Below, piece by piece: positions 2,930 to 10,639 of a DNA stretch of 64,000 nucleotides; within the stretch, counting starts at the first letter, position 1, and the number at the start of each line of letters is the position of its first letter. The notes beneath the pieces are model-generated. The model saw only the letters and a program-made list of their open reading frames with translations. It was not told the DNA's origin and made no database searches. The DNA is taken from positions 1-64,000 of the forward strand of contig JAPLKG010000018.1 in the NCBI GenBank assembly GCA_026388185.1, given 5' to 3'. The stretch is from Candidatus Eisenbacteria bacterium (GTDB lineage: Bacteria; Eisenbacteria; RBG-16-71-46; JAFGJU01). The position numbers and the translations under genes were made by a program.

Positions 2930-4450
2930 CTACTTCGGCAACCTGACCGCCACGAACAGTGTTGCGTTCGCGCGCCTGATCAGGAACAGAGCGGCCTCGC
3001 CGCGTTTCGACTTGGCGAGGGCCTTCTCGTATTCGGAGGCCGTCTTCACCTTCTCCTTGTTTACCTCCTTGACGAGATCTCCCTGGGCTATCCCTGCAGT
3101 CTGTGCAGGACTTCCTCCCTTCACGCTCGTCACGACAACGCCCTCTTCGCCTTCGTAGCCAAGCCTTGATGCAAGCGCAGAAGTGAGAGTTTCCACTTCG
3201 ATCCCGATCTCGCTCACCGCCTTCTCCCTTGTCTCGGCAGGGGCCGCCTCTTCAACGGGAAGCTCTCCGAGTTCGAGAGTGACTTTCTTCTCGTTGCCGT
3301 CCCTGAGTATGGTTGCTTCAGCTCTGCTACCCGGTTTGGTCTCTACGACCATGTTTCTTAGGGCGACGGTGTCGTCCACCTTCTTGCCGTTGAATTCGAG
3401 AATGACGTCGCCGCGCCTGAGCCCCGCTTTCTCGGCCGGACCGCCCTTGGTGATCTCACTGATTACAATTCCCCTGGGCGCTTCGAGACCCAGAGCTTGG
3501 GCCATGTTCTCGTCGATGTTCTGAATCACGACTCCCATCCATCCCCTGACGACCTTGCCCTGTCTGACGAGATCCTCCATCACTTTCTTCGCCATCTCTA
3601 TCGGAATCGCAAAACCGATGCCCTGGTTGCCTCCGGTTCTGCTGAGTATCGCCGTGTTTATACCGATGACTTCTCCGCGAAGATTCACAAGAGCGCCACC
3701 GCTGTTGCCGGGGTTTATGGCGGCGTCCGTCTGAATGAAATCCTCGTACTCGGCGAGACCGACGTTCGAACGGCCCTTGGCGCTCACAATACCTGCCGTC
3801 ACTGTCTGCTCCAACTGCTCCGAGAACGGACTGCCGACTGCGAGCACCCATTCCCCGACTTCCATTTGTCGCGAATCTCCGAACCTCGCCACGGGAAGAT
3901 CGTCGGCCTCTATCTTTATCACCGCCACGTCCGTCTTGGAGTCGCTTCCCACCACCTTCGCGTCATACTTCTTATCGTTGTAGAGGGTGACTTGGATCTT
4001 GTCGGCGTCGGCAATCACGTGATAGTTGGTCAGAACGTATCCATCCTTGCTGACAATTACTCCGGACCCAATTCCTCTCTGCCGCATTTCACCCTCGGGG
4101 ACGGGCCCGCGGAAAAACTTCCCAAAAAAATCGTCTCCGAAAAACTCATCGAAAGGAGAACCGGGGGTGTTTCTCTGAACGTCTGCACTCTTCACGACCT
4201 TCTCGCTCGAGATGGTGACGACGACCGGCCTCACCATTTTTGCCACCATCACGAAGGCCTTGCTTGTGTTCTGGAGCAGCAGAAGTCCCTCTGGAATCTG
4301 CTCGGACGAGCCGAGCGTAACGGCCTTCCCTTTCTCCGAGCCAAAACCGAATCTGACAAGCCCGACGTCAGAAGCAATGTAAATCCCAAGAGTAAGACCG
4401 ACAAGAATGCAGCAGATTGAGAAGAAAAGGTGTTTGTGCCTGGATCTCAT
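2930..4450 (-). CDS. degP: DegP/HtrA family periplasmic serine protease (Do)
   Basis: This is a 506-residue S1C protease with chaperone and proteolytic roles in envelope quality control. One N-terminal membrane segment (about residues 7-28) exports or anchors it. The catalytic triad is visible as H144 (TNYHVI), D174 (KTDVAVIK) and S250 (GNSGGA). Two PDZ domains follow at about 300-390 and 415-506. I chose the ATG at 4450 because GGAGG lies 7 nt upstream; the longer TTG frame from 4483 lacks such a site and overlaps the dnaJ stop. It is the last gene of the dnaK-DUF1844-grpE-dnaJ-degP operon, which suggests that cytoplasmic and periplasmic folding stress are controlled together. Confidence 0.96.
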   Translation of the reverse strand: MRSRHKHLFFSICCILVGLTLGIYIASDVGLVRFGFGSEKGKAVTLGSSEQIPEGLLLLQNTSKAFVMVAKMVRPVVVTISSEKVVKSADVQRNTPGSPFDEFFGDDFFGKFFRGPVPEGEMRQRGIGSGVIVSKDGYVLTNYHVIADADKIQVTLYNDKKYDAKVVGSDSKTDVAVIKIEADDLPVARFGDSRQMEVGEWVLAVGSPFSEQLEQTVTAGIVSAKGRSNVGLAEYEDFIQTDAAINPGNSGGALVNLRGEVIGINTAILSRTGGNQGIGFAIPIEMAKKVMEDLVRQGKVVRGWMGVVIQNIDENMAQALGLEAPRGIVISEITKGGPAEKAGLRRGDVILEFNGKKVDDTVALRNMVVETKPGSRAEATILRDGNEKKVTLELGELPVEEAAPAETREKAVSEIGIEVETLTSALASRLGYEGEEGVVVTSVKGGSPAQTAGIAQGDLVKEVNKEKVKTASEYEKALAKSKRGEAALFLIRRANATLFVAVRLPK

Positions 4451-4479
4451 GTCTATTCCTCCGAAAGTGTAGCGTGAGT

Positions 4480-5607
4480 TCAATGCTCGAGTCCACCCTC
4501 CCTGGCGAACTCTTCGATGAGCTTCTTCTGCTTTTCAGTGATGTTGGACGGTGTAACCACCTCGATCTTTACGAACTGATCCCCCTGAAACCCGTTTTTC
4601 TTCAGACCCAACCCCTTGAGTCTGAACGTCACACCATTTTGAACACCGGCCGGTATCTTGAGTTCCACCTTACGGCCGTCAACCGTGCTCACTTTTATCT
4701 TGGTGCCAAGAACTGCCTGCGCGATATTGATGGGGACAGTGCAGTGTATACTTGCGCCTTTCCTGGTAAAGAAGCTGTGAGGGCCCACCTTGACCTGGAT
4801 GAAGAGATCGCCATGAGGCCCGCCTGCTACGCCAGGCTCGCCCTGACCTCTGAGGCGTATCTTTTCTCCGGAGGAAATCCCCTTGGGGACAGTGACGACG
4901 TATTTCTTTCTGGCGTTGGCCGTTCCTCTCCCGGCGCAAGCCGAGCAAGGCTCGCCGGGGAGCACGCCTCTTCCCAAACACCTTGGACACGGCCTGCTGA
5001 CGGCAAACGCGCCCTGGGCAAAAGATATGCTGCCACGGCCCCCGCACTCCGGGCAGGTCGTTCTCTTGGAGCCAGGTTTTGCACCGGTCCCGCCACACAC
5101 GGTGCAATTTTCCTCTTTGGGAATGGTTATCGTTGTCTTGCCGCCCTTGACCGCCAGTTCGAAGGGCACCTCGAGCTCCAGGTTTATGTCTTCGCCCTTC
5201 TGGGGACCGTAGCTTTCCGCTCTCACTCTGGAGCCACCAAAGAGACTGCTGAAGATATCTCCAAGCCCGCCAAAACCACCGAGGTCTTCGTACGAGAACG
5301 TGGCGCCCTGTCCGGCGCTCCCCGTGAAGGGACCGCCAAAGTCAGAGCCCCGAAATCCCCCGGACCCCGTGAAGACCCCACTCCCCAGCCTTCTCATCTG
5401 ATCATACTGAGCGCGCTTCTGCGGGTCACTCAAGACGTCGTAGGCCTCCGAGACGTCCTTGAATCTGTTCTCGGCGGCCTTGTTACCGGGGTTGGCATCC
5501 GGGTGGTATTTCTTTGCGAGCTTTCTGTAGGCTTTCTTTATCTCGTCAACACCCGCGGTCTCGCTGACCCCCAGAATCTCGTAGAAGTTTTTTTGGGTCT
5601 GCGGCAT
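4480..5607 (-). CDS. dnaJ: Co-chaperone DnaJ (Hsp40)
   Basis: The 375-residue type I DnaJ stimulates DnaK ATPase activity and delivers unfolded clients. It has a J domain at about residues 7-70 with the HPD motif at 35-37, a Gly/Phe-rich linker (about 75-130), and four zinc-binding CxxCxGxG-type repeats ([32 protein letters not shown]). The C-terminal substrate-binding domains follow. The ATG lies two bases after the grpE stop, so translation is probably coupled. The length is normal for the family. Confidence 0.98.
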
Positions 5608-5609
5608 GC

Positions 5610-6173
5610 TTATTCGTCATCCTGGTCAGATTGTATCTGTGTAACCTCGACCTTGCTGGGTCTCACAAGTTTGCCCTTGAAGGTGTAACCCTTCTGGAAG
5701 TCCTTGACTATCTCGCCGTCGGCTCCTTCCTTCACTTTTGTCACAACTACCGCCTCGTGGAAATTGGGATCGAAGCTCTGCCCTTTGCACACGATGGCCT
5801 CGAGGCCCTCTACTTGAAGCGTGGACTTGAGTTTTCCGTAGATCAGTCTGACTCCCCTCAGAACTTCCTCGCTATCAGAGTTCGAATCCAGGCTCTCGAT
5901 GGCCCGTTCGAGGTCGTCCATCACGGGAAGAAGTTTGCATATCAGCTCGGCCTTTGCGTAGTCGTACGCTTCGACAAGTTCCCGCTGTGTCCGCTTTCGG
6001 TAGTTTGCAAACTCAGCCTGAAGCCTTTGAAGGTGATCGAGATATTCTTGCGCCAGATTCCTCTCTTCTTCTATTTCGCTCTCGATTTCCTTTCCGGTCT
6101 CCTCTTCGGCAACAACCTCTGAATCGGGAGGAGCGGGCTCGTGCCCCGCTCCAACCTTCCTCTTCTTCGCCAT
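5610..6173 (-). CDS. grpE: Nucleotide exchange factor GrpE
   Basis: The 187-residue protein exchanges ADP for ATP on DnaK. It has an acidic disordered N-terminus, a long coiled coil (about 35-95, containing the conserved 'FANYRKR' type sequence), and the C-terminal beta domain ending in the usual '[19 protein letters not shown]'-like block. A GGAG ribosome-binding site sits 8 nt before the ATG. It lies between the DUF1844 gene (12-nt gap) and dnaJ. Confidence 0.97.
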
Positions 6174-6185
6174 CTATCTCACTCC

Positions 6186-6536
6186 TCAGGGTTTCTTGTC
6201 GTCTGTCTCGCCCGCAGTCTTCTGAGCCTTCGTCTCTGGTTGTGGCCCTTTTTCCTGTTCCTGGCGATCTTTTTCGACCTCGTCAAGATAGTTCATTCTT
6301 AGCTCGGTGAGCGCCGTCCTCAGAGTTCTGGTCTCTTCTTCGGTGCGATTGCCGTTAGTCTTGTCTTCCAGCATACCGAGCATGTCGATTGTGAAACGTG
6401 CCTGGTCCAGATTTCTCTCAATCTTCTGAGTCAACGGACTTATCAGTTTGCCCAGGGCAATCATTGCGGTGGACTGAAGATTGATGACGAGGCCCATGAA
6501 AAGTGCCTCGTTCAAGCCGGGCTCTCTTTCGACCAT
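6186..6536 (-). CDS. DUF1844 domain protein
   Basis: The 116-residue protein is recognisable as DUF1844 by its amphipathic first half (GLVINLQSTAMIALGK.. then LDQARFTIDMLGMLEDKT) and its ending in a charged low-complexity tail. It has no signal peptide, and its biochemical function is unknown. It has its own strong GGAGG site 7 nt before the ATG and lies between dnaK and grpE, so it is co-expressed with the Hsp70 system. A role linked to DnaK or to membrane-associated folding is possible but not shown by the sequence. Confidence 0.85.
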   Translation of the reverse strand: MVEREPGLNEALFMGLVINLQSTAMIALGKLISPLTQKIERNLDQARFTIDMLGMLEDKTNGNRTEEETRTLRTALTELRMNYLDEVEKDRQEQEKGPQPETKAQKTAGETDDKKP

Positions 6537-6591: not shown

Positions 6592-8526
6592 TTACTCCAC
6601 GACCTCAAAGTCGGCGTCAACGGCGTCTCCCTCTTTGCGTTCCTTGGGACCGGCTTGAGGGCCTGCCTGACCCTGAGACGCACCTCCGGCTGACTCCGAG
6701 CCTGTGTGCTGTGCTCCGGCGCCTGGAGAGGCTTTTGCGTACATCTGCTCGGCGGCATCGTGCCACACTTGCGTCAGCGCTTCGGTGGCGGACCTGATCT
6801 CGTCAACGTTGTCGTTCTTGACCGCCTCCTTGACTCTGGAGACGGCGGCCTCAACCTTGGCTTTCATGTCAGGGTCGAGGTTGGCACCCGCCTGCTTGAG
6901 GTTTTTCTCAGTCTCATAAACCATCTGGTCCGCGCGGTTTCGGGCGTCTATCCCGTCCCTGCGCTTCTTGTCTTCCGAAGTGTGCTCTTCGGCATCCCTC
7001 ACCATTCTCTTGATCTCTTCCTCTTTGAGACCGCTGGAAGCTTCTATGCGGATACTCTGCTCACGCCCCGTGGCCTTGTCCTTTGCCGAGACGTTGAGGA
7101 TTCCGTTCGCGTCTATGTCGAACGTCACCTCAATCTGCGGAATGCCTCTCGGCGCAGGAGGAATGCCCGTCAGTTGAAAGCGGCCTATGGTCCTGTTGTC
7201 AACCGCCATCGGCCGTTCGCCCTGGAGCACGTGAATCTCCACGGTCGTCTGATCGTCGGCCGCCGTGGTGAAAGTCTCGCTTCTTCGTGTCGGGATGGTG
7301 GTGTTTCGTTCGATGAGCTTTGTGCAAACTCCACCCAGCGTCTCGATGCCGAGAGAGAGCGGCGTCACATCGAGCAGGAGAATGTCCTTCACTTCTCCGG
7401 CCAAGACTCCTGCCTGAATCGCGGCACCGACGGCAACCACCTCATCGGGATTCACACCCTTGTGAGGCTCCTTCTCGAAAAGCTCCTTCACGAGCTGTTG
7501 GACTTTAGGCATCCTTGTTTGGCCACCGACCAGGATTACCTCGTCGATTTCACTGGGCTTGAGCCCCGCGTCGGCCATGGCTTTTCTGCACGGCCCGACT
7601 GTGCGCTGGACAAGGTCGTCCACCAGTTGCTCCAGCTTCGCTCTCGTGAGAGTAATGTTGAGATGCTTCGGTCCTGACTGATCTGCGGTAATGAAGGGCA
7701 GATTGACCTCAGTCTGTATCGTGCTCGAAAGCTCACACTTCGCCTTCTCCGCAGCCTCCTTGAGCCTCTGAAGAGCCATCGCATCCTTTCTGAGGTCAAT
7801 CCCCTCTTGCTTCTTGAACTCGTCTGCCAGCCAATCCATGATTCGCTGGTCGAAGTCGTCGCCGCCAAGATGCGTGTCGCCGTTGGTCGCTTTGACTTCG
7901 AACACACCATCGCCGAGCTCAAGTATCGAGATATCAAAGGTGCCGCCTCCAAGGTCGTACACGGCGATCTTTTCATCTTTTTTCTTGTCCAGCCCGTAAG
8001 CCAAAGAGGCAGCAGTAGGTTCATTAATGATCCTCTTGACGTCAAGGCCCGCTATCCTTCCCGCATCCTTTGTCGCCTGCCTCTGACTGTCGTTGAAGTA
8101 TGCGGGCACGGTGATGACGGCTTCTGTGACTTTCTCGCCCAGGTACTCCTCCGCTGTTTGCTTCATCTTCTGGAGAATCATCGCGGAGATCTCGGGCGGC
8201 GTGTAATCCTGGCCTGCAATCTTGACTGTGGCCAGGTCGTTCTTCGCCCTCATCACTTCGTACGGAACCGTGGCGATTTCGGAGGTGACTTCGTCGTACT
8301 TCCGTCCCATGAACCTCTTTATTGAATAGATCGTGTTCCTGGGATTCGTAATCGCCTGGCGCTTGGCCACGAGCCCGACCAGTCTCTCCCCCGTCTTTGT
8401 AAAAGCGACAACTGAAGGCGTAGTTCGTCCGCCCTCAGAGTTCGCGATGACCACGGCTTCTCCGCCCTCCATGACTGCTACACAGGAGTTCGTCGTACCA
8501 AGGTCGATTCCTATTGTCTTTCCCAT
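6592..8526 (-). CDS. dnaK: Molecular chaperone DnaK (Hsp70)
   Basis: This is a 644-residue Hsp70. The ATPase domain starts with [17 protein letters not shown] and contains the phosphate-binding block [12 protein letters not shown] and the hinge [11 protein letters not shown]. The substrate-binding domain and helical lid follow, and the C-terminus ends in an acidic 'DADFEVVE'-type tail. The frame is open to 8712, but the ATG at 8526 begins the conserved N-terminus and has an AGAGAGG site. The extension would also start upstream of the sigma-54 promoter at 8604-8619. It is the first gene of the folding operon. Regulation appears to be by sigma-54 with upstream activator sites rather than by CIRCE/HrcA or sigma-32. 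Confidence 0.98.
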
Positions 8527-8603
8527 GTTCAAAACCTCTCTTTGTGAAGGCAAGTCATCGAAATTTTCTTCGCCGAGACCTCCATTGTTCGGTGTAGAGA
8601 AAG

Positions 8604-8619
8604 AGCAAGTCGTGTGCCA
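8604..8619 (-). promoter_or_regulatory. Sigma-54 (RpoN) promoter of the dnaK operon
   Basis: The minus strand reads TGGCAC-ACGAC-TTGCT, an exact match to the -24/-12 consensus TGGCAC-N5-TTGCW. The predicted start site is near 8593, giving a leader of about 67 nt before the dnaK ATG. Three palindromes 110-230 nt further upstream and the adjacent activator gene fit a sigma-54 enhancer layout. Confidence 0.85.
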
Positions 8620-8725
8620 CGGGCCGAAATAAGAACCTCGTCTCGGTAGTCTCTTGCTTGAGAAGAAGTTATGACGCCGTTGGAGTTCCAGAGTCCGAGG
8701 CGTCCGCCTCATCTGGAAGAGAAAT

Positions 8726-8740
8726 GTTTCAAAATGAAAC
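8726..8740. promoter_or_regulatory. Upstream activator palindrome 1 (GTTTCA-AAA-TGAAAC)
   Basis: A perfect 15-bp inverted repeat with a 3-nt centre, about 140 nt upstream of the predicted dnaK start site. It is the promoter-proximal copy of three and a likely binding site for the Fis-type helix-turn-helix of the adjacent sigma-54 activator. Confidence 0.75.
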
Positions 8741-8748
8741 CACCCACT

Positions 8749-8763
8749 GCTTCATTGTGAAAC
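8749..8763. promoter_or_regulatory. Upstream activator palindrome 2 (GCTTCA-TTG-TGAAAC)
   Basis: The second copy differs from the consensus by one base in the left arm. Its centre is 23 bp from copy 1, close to two helical turns, which would place two dimers on the same DNA face. Confidence 0.7.
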
Positions 8764-8810
8764 AATACTCGGGGTGCGGCACGAACTGAGTCGCATTTGC
8801 ACAGAGAATG

Positions 8811-8825
8811 GTTTCATTATGAAAC
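8811..8825. promoter_or_regulatory. Upstream activator palindrome 3 (GTTTCA-TTA-TGAAAC)
   Basis: The third, perfect copy lies 62 bp from the centre of copy 2 (close to six helical turns), between the stop of the activator gene and dnaK. The arms match copy 1 exactly and the spacer differs, as expected for a protein-binding site. Confidence 0.75.
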
Positions 8826-8888
8826 GACGTCGGGACAAGCTGGCCCTGATGAGCGAAACCGGAGCATGCGTCCAGCGTACTCGCGGCT

Positions 8889-9980
8889 CTATTTTGAGGA
8901 ACTGCCGAGGCCGTACTCCCGCATCTTTCTCCACAAAGTAGAGCGGGAGATTCCCAGAGACAAGGCCGTCTTCGAGACGCTGCCTTCATGCTTCGCGAGC
9001 ACGGTCTTGATATGCTCGCGTTCCAACTGTATGAGCGACCACTCCGTCGAGTAACCAGCCAGGCCTTCTTCCGGAGCGCGCAACATCTTTCTCTGCGTCA
9101 TCTCCGAGGGAAGCTCCTTTTCGGTGACGAGATCCCCTTCGGCCAGGGCGACCGCCCTCTCCACGGCGTTCTCGAGCTCGCGAACGTTACCCGGGTAGTC
9201 GTGGCGGAGCAAGAACAACTGTGCTTCCCGGGAAAAGCCGGTGATCTTCTTGCCCAGCCTTCTCGAATATCGCTCGAGGAAGTAGCGAGCCAGGAGTGGG
9301 ACGTCGTCCCGACGCTCTCTCAAGGGCGGAAGCTCAATCTGAAAAACATTGAGCCTATAGTAGAGATCTTCCCTGAGCTGGCCTGCCTGCAATGCCTTGC
9401 GGACGTCGCGATTGGTAGCAGCTATGAGCCTGACATCTATCCTCAGGGCCGCGGTGTCTCCGATTCTCCTGACTTCTTTTTCCTGCAACGCCCTGAGGAG
9501 TTTAACCTGAATACCCGGAGGCATCTCGGCTATCTCGTCGAGGAAAAGCGTGCCTCCGTCAGCCTGTTCGAAAAGCCCCTTCTTCGTGCCCGTTGCTCCG
9601 GTGAACGCTCCTCTCACGTAACCGAAGAGCTCACTCTCAAAAAGAGTTTCCGGAATGGCTGCGCAGTTGACCGGCAAGAATGGTAGCGACGCCCTCGCGC
9701 TCTCGTAGTGAATGGCCCTGGCCACAAGCTCCTTGCCGGTCCCGCTCTCCCCAGCAATGAGCACGCTGCTATCCGTTGACGCTATCTTGGTTATGAGCTT
9801 GAGAAGCCGCCTCATCTTGGACGAACGGCCGAGGATGCCCTGGAGCATCTCGTATCCGAGAGCCTGTGCCCCTTGCGACGTCTGGCTCTGAGCCCCGTGG
9901 TCGGCTTCGTGCCATCCGTCTTCGGGTCGATGGCGCGTTTTTTCAGGTCTGTTGTTTTCGCCAGTGCCTTCCGGTGTCAT
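8889..9980 (-). CDS. Sigma-54-dependent transcriptional activator without sensory domain (PspF-like architecture)
   Basis: The 363-residue protein has a short, polar N-terminus (about 45 residues) with no receiver, PAS or GAF domain. The AAA+ sigma-54 interaction domain follows: Walker A GESGTGKE (about 77-84), the sigma-54 contact loop GAFTGA (124-129), Walker B GGTLFLDEI, and the arginine-finger region. The C-terminus is a Fis-type helix-turn-helix (TALSLGISRSTLWRKM). I prefer the ATG at 9980, with GAGG 5-6 nt upstream, because the longer frame from 10043 would read through a terminator hairpin. It lies just upstream of dnaK on the same strand, next to three palindromes and a consensus sigma-54 promoter, so it most likely activates the dnaK operon. 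How it senses stress cannot be seen; inhibition by a partner protein, as PspA does to PspF, is an inference. Confidence 0.92.
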   Translation of the reverse strand: MTPEGTGENNRPEKTRHRPEDGWHEADHGAQSQTSQGAQALGYEMLQGILGRSSKMRRLLKLITKIASTDSSVLIAGESGTGKELVARAIHYESARASLPFLPVNCAAIPETLFESELFGYVRGAFTGATGTKKGLFEQADGGTLFLDEIAEMPPGIQVKLLRALQEKEVRRIGDTAALRIDVRLIAATNRDVRKALQAGQLREDLYYRLNVFQIELPPLRERRDDVPLLARYFLERYSRRLGKKITGFSREAQLFLLRHDYPGNVRELENAVERAVALAEGDLVTEKELPSEMTQRKMLRAPEEGLAGYSTEWSLIQLEREHIKTVLAKHEGSVSKTALSLGISRSTLWRKMREYGLGSSSK

Positions 9981-9990
9981 GTTGCCTCGC

Positions 9991-10026
9991 AAAGAGAAGG
10001 GCTCACCCCCCTGAGGAGTGAGCCCT
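9991..10026 (-). terminator. Terminator between the beta-barrel gene and the sigma-54 activator gene
   Basis: A perfect 9-bp stem (9998-10006 with 10018-10026, 11-nt loop) is followed on the minus strand by a T-rich stretch (TTCTCTTT, 9990-9997). It lies 19 nt past the beta-barrel stop and argues against the longer start of the activator. Confidence 0.7.
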
Positions 10027-10045
10027 GGCCATCCGAACGGCAAGT

Positions 10046-10639
10046 TTAGAACATGAAGTCGACGCCGGCACCGATAGTGAAATACTGGGTGCTATTGTCT
10101 TCCGTCATTACGTTGTGGAAGCGCGCACCAAAATCGATTAGGGCCGTCGCAGAGATGGGGAACTTGACACCGCCGCCGATGTTGAAGCCGAAGTCACTCT
10201 CGCTGTCGCTCTCTGTGTCGTCAGCGATTGTGATCTCAGCGGTCTCAAAATACATCCCCAGTCCACCCTTCAGATACGGTGTCACTGACGAGCTCATGGG
10301 GAAATTCGCCACGAAGTCCACCATCACGGGCATGAACTGAAAATTCGCCTCAACGTCTTCGCCGCTCAAGGCCTCCAACACTGCCACAAGGTCATCGTTG
10401 GCAGCGAACTTGCTCCACTCCATGCCCACTTCCAGACCATACTTGCCGGTGAACATATAGCCGACACTTGCGCCTGCAGTAAGCCCGCCGTCGTAGGCGT
10501 CCCCGAAATCACCCATCGGAAGACCGTAGCCGACGTTGAGGCCGAGCACCCACGCCGAGCTGGTGGTTTCCATCTGGGCAAAAGCTGCAGTCGCGCCGAA
10601 AAACAACAGTATCAATGGCAGAACAACAAACTTCTTCAT
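10046..10639 (-). CDS. Outer-membrane beta-barrel protein (OmpW/opacity-like porin family)
   Basis: The 197-residue protein has a classic signal peptide (MKKFVVLPLILLFFGATAAFA). It then alternates hydrophobic/polar strands rich in Gly and aromatic residues, such as 'GLNVGYGLPMGDFG' and 'YLKGGLGMYFE', and ends in phenylalanine, as outer-membrane barrels do. About eight strands fit the length. I chose the ATG at 10639, 8 nt after AGGAG. The substrate or function is unknown. It lies downstream of lolA on the same strand and has its own terminator. Confidence 0.8.
   Translation of the reverse strand: MKKFVVLPLILLFFGATAAFAQMETTSSAWVLGLNVGYGLPMGDFGDAYDGGLTAGASVGYMFTGKYGLEVGMEWSKFAANDDLVAVLEALSGEDVEANFQFMPVMVDFVANFPMSSSVTPYLKGGLGMYFETAEITIADDTESDSESDFGFNIGGGVKFPISATALIDFGARFHNVMTEDNSTQYFTIGAGVDFMF

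Follow-up and report, generated by a model that had tools for sequence, protein, structure and literature searches.

The window analysed here, a stretch of 64,000 nucleotides from a Candidatus Eisenbacteria genome (2.62 Mb, 98% complete), carries a dnaK locus whose genes all lie on the minus strand. The Hsp70 gene dnaK itself (6592–8526, PF00012 E=3e-274) is followed by grpE (5610–6173, PF01025 E=2e-43), dnaJ (4480–5607, PF00226, PF00684 and PF01556) and a gene for an htrA/degP-type protease (2930–4483, TIGR02037 507.8 bits against a cut-off of 416.2), which shares 4 nt with the end of dnaJ. A gene for a DUF1844 protein (6186–6536, PF08899 E=2e-24) sits within the dnaK–grpE–dnaJ operon. Upstream of dnaK, across a gap of 362 nt, lies a gene (8889–9980) for an enhancer-binding protein (EBP) that combines a sigma-54 activator AAA+ domain (PF00158 E=2e-72, AAA_lid_14) with a C-terminal Fis-type helix–turn–helix (HTH_8); its true start is uncertain, with ATG codons at 9980 and at 9848. 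A strong terminator-like hairpin (9998–10026) separates this gene from one for an outer-membrane protein, which suggests either a separate promoter for the EBP gene or a gene start that lies further 3′.

In transcription order the gap contains GTTTCATAATGAAAC, GTTTCACAATGAAGC and GTTTCATTTTGAAAC, and then TGGCACACGACTTGCT. The last of these (8604–8619, read from 8619 to 8604 on the minus strand) matches the sigma-54 −24/−12 promoter TGGCAC-N5-TTGCT exactly, as the original prediction held, with its GG-N10-GC element (TGGCAC-N5-TTGCW) intact, and it is the sole exact match within the window. Transcription from it would start near 8593 and give a predicted dnaK mRNA leader of ~67 nt ending in a good, probable ribosome-binding site (AAAGAGAGG, 8535–8543, minus strand, by direct reading of the sequence). 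The other three elements are putative enhancer palindromes, predicted originally to be three copies of GTTTCA-N3-TGAAAC; the proximal (GTTTCAAAATGAAAC, 8726–8740) and distal (GTTTCATTATGAAAC, 8811–8825) sites are indeed exact but the middle one (GCTTCATTGTGAAAC, 8749–8763) carries one mismatch. As claimed, 23 and 62 bp separate their centres, which lie 127 bp (proximal), 150 bp (middle) and 212 bp (distal) from the C of the −12 element, or at about −140, −163 and −225 relative to the predicted start, distances in line with the ~100–200 bp upstream expected of enhancer sites in a sigma-54-dependent promoter unit. No HSP20 match was found anywhere in this genome and dnaK stands directly 3′ of the promoter; in two genomes of the same family (G001 and G002) an hsp20 gene lies between promoter and dnaK, so hsp20 has probably been lost here, leaving dnaK directly behind the promoter.

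The 8889–9980 protein had been put forward as the candidate to bind these palindromes, and its features would make it the obvious activator. Direct reading of the sequence places the GAFTGA loop, the sigma-54 contact, at 9594–9611 (minus strand), and the HTH_8 match (residues 318–356) places the HTH region at 8913–9029 (minus strand); by alignment, its recognition helix, LGISR(S/T)TLWRK, is near-invariant among orthologues. Neither a domain search nor inspection of orthologue N-termini revealed a receiver, GAF, PAS or other sensor domain; these N-termini are 6 to ~60 residues long or unresolved, and are unconserved, which speaks against a hidden sensor domain. The architecture (AAA+ with GAFTGA, Fis-type HTH, no N-terminal regulatory domain) is that of the group 4, PspF-type EBPs. 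The protein is not PspF itself, as it scores 272.5 bits against a cut-off of 443.55 for TIGR02974 and also fails PRK11608 (227 against 529). When orthologue neighbourhoods were compared, no candidate emerged for a conserved kinase or inhibitor gene 5′ of the EBP gene, the upstream neighbour being lysS-like in four of the families numbered below (f5, f7, f9 and f10) and unrelated in the others.

Chance occurrence was assessed within this genome by shuffling and by genome-wide search. Of 500 shuffles of the leader that preserved its dinucleotides, none equalled its best promoter match and one equalled its best palindrome. The promoter motif by itself is common: with one mismatch allowed, the genome holds 98 matches to it and 103 to the reversed control, and nine of the ten exact matches fall outside the dnaK leader, several of them preceding plausible genes (response regulators and exopolysaccharide-type genes); its weight therefore rests on position and conservation. 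The exact palindrome, by contrast with the exact promoter motif, is found in the dnaK leader and nowhere else in a whole-genome search. None of the nine other exact sigma-54 sites has dnaK-type palindromes 5′ of it, and in the groEL leaders of this genome that were inspected neither such sites nor CIRCE were found. A wider regulon in this genome is not indicated, the five single-mismatch palindromes outside the locus equalling the control count. The original prediction depended on the presence of rpoN, and the genome has one complete copy with all three sigma-54 domains (AID, CBD and DBD, that is, activator-interacting, core-binding and DNA-binding).

The usual account of bacterial heat-shock control invokes sigma-32 or HrcA/CIRCE. 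The earlier observation that CIRCE and HrcA are not seen here holds genome-wide: HrcA was not found in this genome (G000), G001 or G002, nor was CIRCE at up to three mismatches, absences that rest on draft genomes, and the combination expected of HrcA/CIRCE control (an HrcA gene with CIRCE near dnaK) is accordingly missing. Nor is sigma-32 control indicated, since the best match to RpoH scored 142 bits against a curated cut-off of 323 and no genome in the comparison set passes, although a divergent heat-shock sigma factor may be present despite this failure. Across the phylum (47 genomes, in families numbered f1–f11) HrcA is present in f3, f4 and f8; it is gone from f1 and is also missing from f2, f5, f6, f7, f9, f10 and f11. 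In f4, CIRCE-like elements precede groEL, which together with the retention of HrcA in three families suggests a division of labour, with HrcA serving groEL and sigma-54 serving hsp20–dnaK.

Orthologues of the EBP were found in 31 of the 47 genomes (E ≤ 1e-96); those placed in a tree (28 rows, ten families) form a single clade (99/99 support), and the closest proteins from other phyla fall outside it. The gene lies directly 5′ of dnaK, or of a ~450-nt gene and then dnaK, in 20 of the 47 (families f1, f2, f3, f4, f5, f7, f9 and f10), the ~450-nt gene encoding HSP20 in the cases tested. The motif itself recurs in dnaK leaders of relatives both near and remote, as the original prediction would require. 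Leaders were scanned for GTTYC-N5-GRAAC together with TGGCAY-N5-YTGCW at an allowed spacing of 100–155 bp, and a joint match was obtained in 31 of 34 (11 families). With at most two mismatches in all, 25 of the 34 leaders matched against 0 of 6,800 shuffled leaders, a contrast that overstates the number of independent observations because some of the scored leaders went into the relaxed UAS consensus and because leaders from related genomes are not independent; the agreement nevertheless spans eleven families. The distance from palindrome to −12 element in the relatives is 105–142 bp (nearest scored site), with clusters near 108 and 130, and paired sites are usually 21–23 bp, about two helical turns, apart. 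The exceptions are G014, with its site at 96 bp, one leader (L032, from G009) without the GG-N10-GC element and G027 with a poor promoter. In EBP-adjacent relatives an AT-rich tract (~60% against a baseline of ~42%) lies 20–60 bp 5′ of −26, between enhancer and promoter, as would be expected for a bend or an IHF site; it was not seen in f8, and no consistent match to the IHF consensus was found between enhancer and promoter in the leaders scanned.

The families in which the EBP gene does not sit beside dnaK (f6, f8 and f11) are informative, since hsp20–dnaK there keeps its sigma-54 promoter and GTTYC-N5-GRAAC palindromes at unchanged spacing, so that the sites can be separated from mere linkage. 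The f8 gene precedes an alanyl-tRNA-editing-like gene and its product has an unchanged recognition helix; the retention of the sites without their EBP neighbour in this family implies that the EBP would act in trans. An alignment-independent test was provided by searching all 47 genomes for a strict form of the palindrome, GTTYCAWWWTGRAAC, which gave eight sites against none for the reversed control. Six of the eight lie in the EBP–dnaK gaps of five genomes and seven precede dnaK or hsp20, bearing out the expectation that the palindromes are specific to such leaders. The seventh (L203, G031:C415) belongs to a stand-alone hsp20 gene preceded by GTTTCATATTGAAAC and by its own sigma-54 promoter, TGGCACGCCACCTGCT, and this gene is a predicted second target of the regulator in G031. 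At the eighth (L204, G006:C42:11238), GTTCCATTATGGAAC and AGGCATGGGGATTGCT precede a gene for a HAMP/HisKA sensor kinase, with the C-terminus of clpB encoded on the other side of the enhancer site; this kinase offers an alternative lead, as a candidate through which the missing signal could reach the EBP.

Taken with its conservation, the leader is very probably a sigma-54-dependent promoter–enhancer unit for the dnaK operon, activated by the adjacent EBP, and comparative genomics strongly backs the sigma-54 interpretation. EBP dimers would bind the GTTYC-N5-GRAAC palindromes ~105–150 bp, and here also 212 bp, 5′ of −12 and assemble into an AAA+ hexamer; the intervening DNA would loop, and ATP hydrolysis by the EBP would open the sigma-54 polymerase complex at TGGCAC-N5-TTGCT, yielding a dnaK–DUF1844–grpE–dnaJ–htrA transcript (hsp20–dnaK in most relatives) that would presumably be induced by stress. 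It is distinctly possible, if not what we would favour, that control is in tandem, with a housekeeping promoter supplying the bulk of dnaK transcripts and the sigma-54 promoter serving as an auxiliary input under some specific stress or growth condition, as at hrcA–grpE–dnaK of Chlamydia, where tandem sigma-66 and sigma-54 promoters are found (PMC7482065, PMC8762339). Basal DnaK is normally required, and a non-consensus housekeeping promoter may be present, for which the AT-rich tract of the relatives could be taken as a sign; however, that tract fits a bend or IHF site equally well, no sigma-70-like site was found in 8480–10100 at the consensus threshold, and the best −35/−10 matches that the leaders offer are for the most part poor and have no fixed position. 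That the palindromes are instead operators of a separate repressor or other regulator, with another EBP serving the promoter, is very improbable. The neighbouring EBP is a putative binder and one of ~16 EBP-like proteins encoded by this genome, but the sites stand 105–142 bp 5′ of −12, a distance usual for EBPs and seldom seen for repressors, never overlap the promoter and track the EBP clade, whose recognition helix hardly varies, and linkage to a further conserved regulator gene was not seen. A chance or relic origin of promoter match and palindromes in a transcribed spacer, with dnaK read through from the EBP gene, can draw on the frequency of the promoter motif alone but is of negligible likelihood given the joint conservation over 34 leaders and 11 families, unequalled in shuffles, the site specificity in 47 genomes and the persistence of the elements in f8 with no EBP gene 5′ of them.

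If the EBP is the activator of this sigma-54 unit, some external factor must govern its activity, since it has no sensor domain. Group 4 EBPs such as PspF lack a regulatory domain, and a protein that binds them in trans controls their activity (PMC7175178, Table 1). The resemblance to PspF extends to an architecture of AAA+ and HTH only, a stress operon as target and palindromic sites 5′ of a sigma-54 promoter; unlike PspF, the EBP is predicted to target hsp20–dnaK instead of pspA, and its gene has no linked inhibitor gene. By analogy, the EBP may be controlled by a protein partner in trans, and our guess is that this partner is a chaperone or some other stress-titrated inhibitor, the chaperone-titrated form being economical as the product of the operon is DnaK. 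A bolder version, which we offer tentatively and consider rather unlikely, is that in this phylum sigma-32/HrcA logic has given way to a separate and complete heat-shock circuit, in which a sensorless sigma-54 activator is kept inactive by free DnaK or Hsp20 and is freed when unfolded proteins titrate the chaperone. Were this true, the chaperone operon would feed back on the activator bound at its own enhancer.

Sigma-54 control of the dnaK operon, as originally proposed, is thus supported by the comparative data, but its rarity was overstated, since sigma-54 input to chaperone genes is already known from Flavobacterium and Chlamydia and has been predicted elsewhere, if only in a few other bacterial groups. 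In Flavobacterium psychrophilum (the SM4 regulon) mapped starts with sigma-54 motifs precede groESL, dnaK, grpE–dnaJ, lon, htpG and clpB, which resembles the present case in the −24/−12 motifs before chaperone genes including dnaK; in the portion of that report drawn on here the activator is not identified and enhancer sites are not described (PMC9723704), whereas here a single sensorless EBP lies beside dnaK with conserved palindromes, and the groEL leaders of this genome lack such sites. The hrcA operon of Chlamydia likewise provides sigma-54 input to an Hsp70 operon, but in that case it operates alongside HrcA/CIRCE and a housekeeping promoter, and the activator is the response regulator AtoC (PMC7482065, PMC8762339), whereas no HrcA/CIRCE is found here. 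A 2025 survey reported enrichment of chaperones among predicted sigma-54 targets in Bacteroidota and Planctomycetota (PMC12316311), a similarly computational link, to DnaK, GrpE, DnaJ, GroEL and IbpA; as far as the part of it considered here goes, it rests on enrichment of predicted promoters by COG and singles out neither an enhancer nor a dedicated activator, and Eisenbacteria, Krumholzibacteria and Gemmatimonadota go unmentioned in its main text. Outside the phylum, in the Deltaproteobacteria MAG CSMAG_819 (L111, 4001–7402), an NtrC-type EBP with a receiver domain lies 5′ of a small response-regulator gene and dnaK, and between them are palindromes resembling ATGTCATTATGGCAC as well as TGGCACGGTTGTTGTT, a sigma-54-like site. 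This is possibly a second, phosphorelay-type version of the EBP–dnaK design, and related designs may therefore be more widespread.

What appears to be new is the dedicated sensorless activator with its putative sites, their fixed geometry and their conservation throughout the phylum; no description of a phylum-conserved, sensorless EBP linked to dnaK with enhancers was found in the literature searched. Sigma-54 promoters remain closed until an ATPase opens them, and the chaperone operon should therefore be tightly off and strongly inducible. A dedicated sigma-54 activator is tied to hsp20–dnaK through all of the sampled families, several of which lack HrcA. The locus would thereby put a name to both the activator and the DNA site of sigma-54 chaperone control, two points left open by the Flavobacterium work, and how a sensorless activator senses stress becomes a directly testable question.
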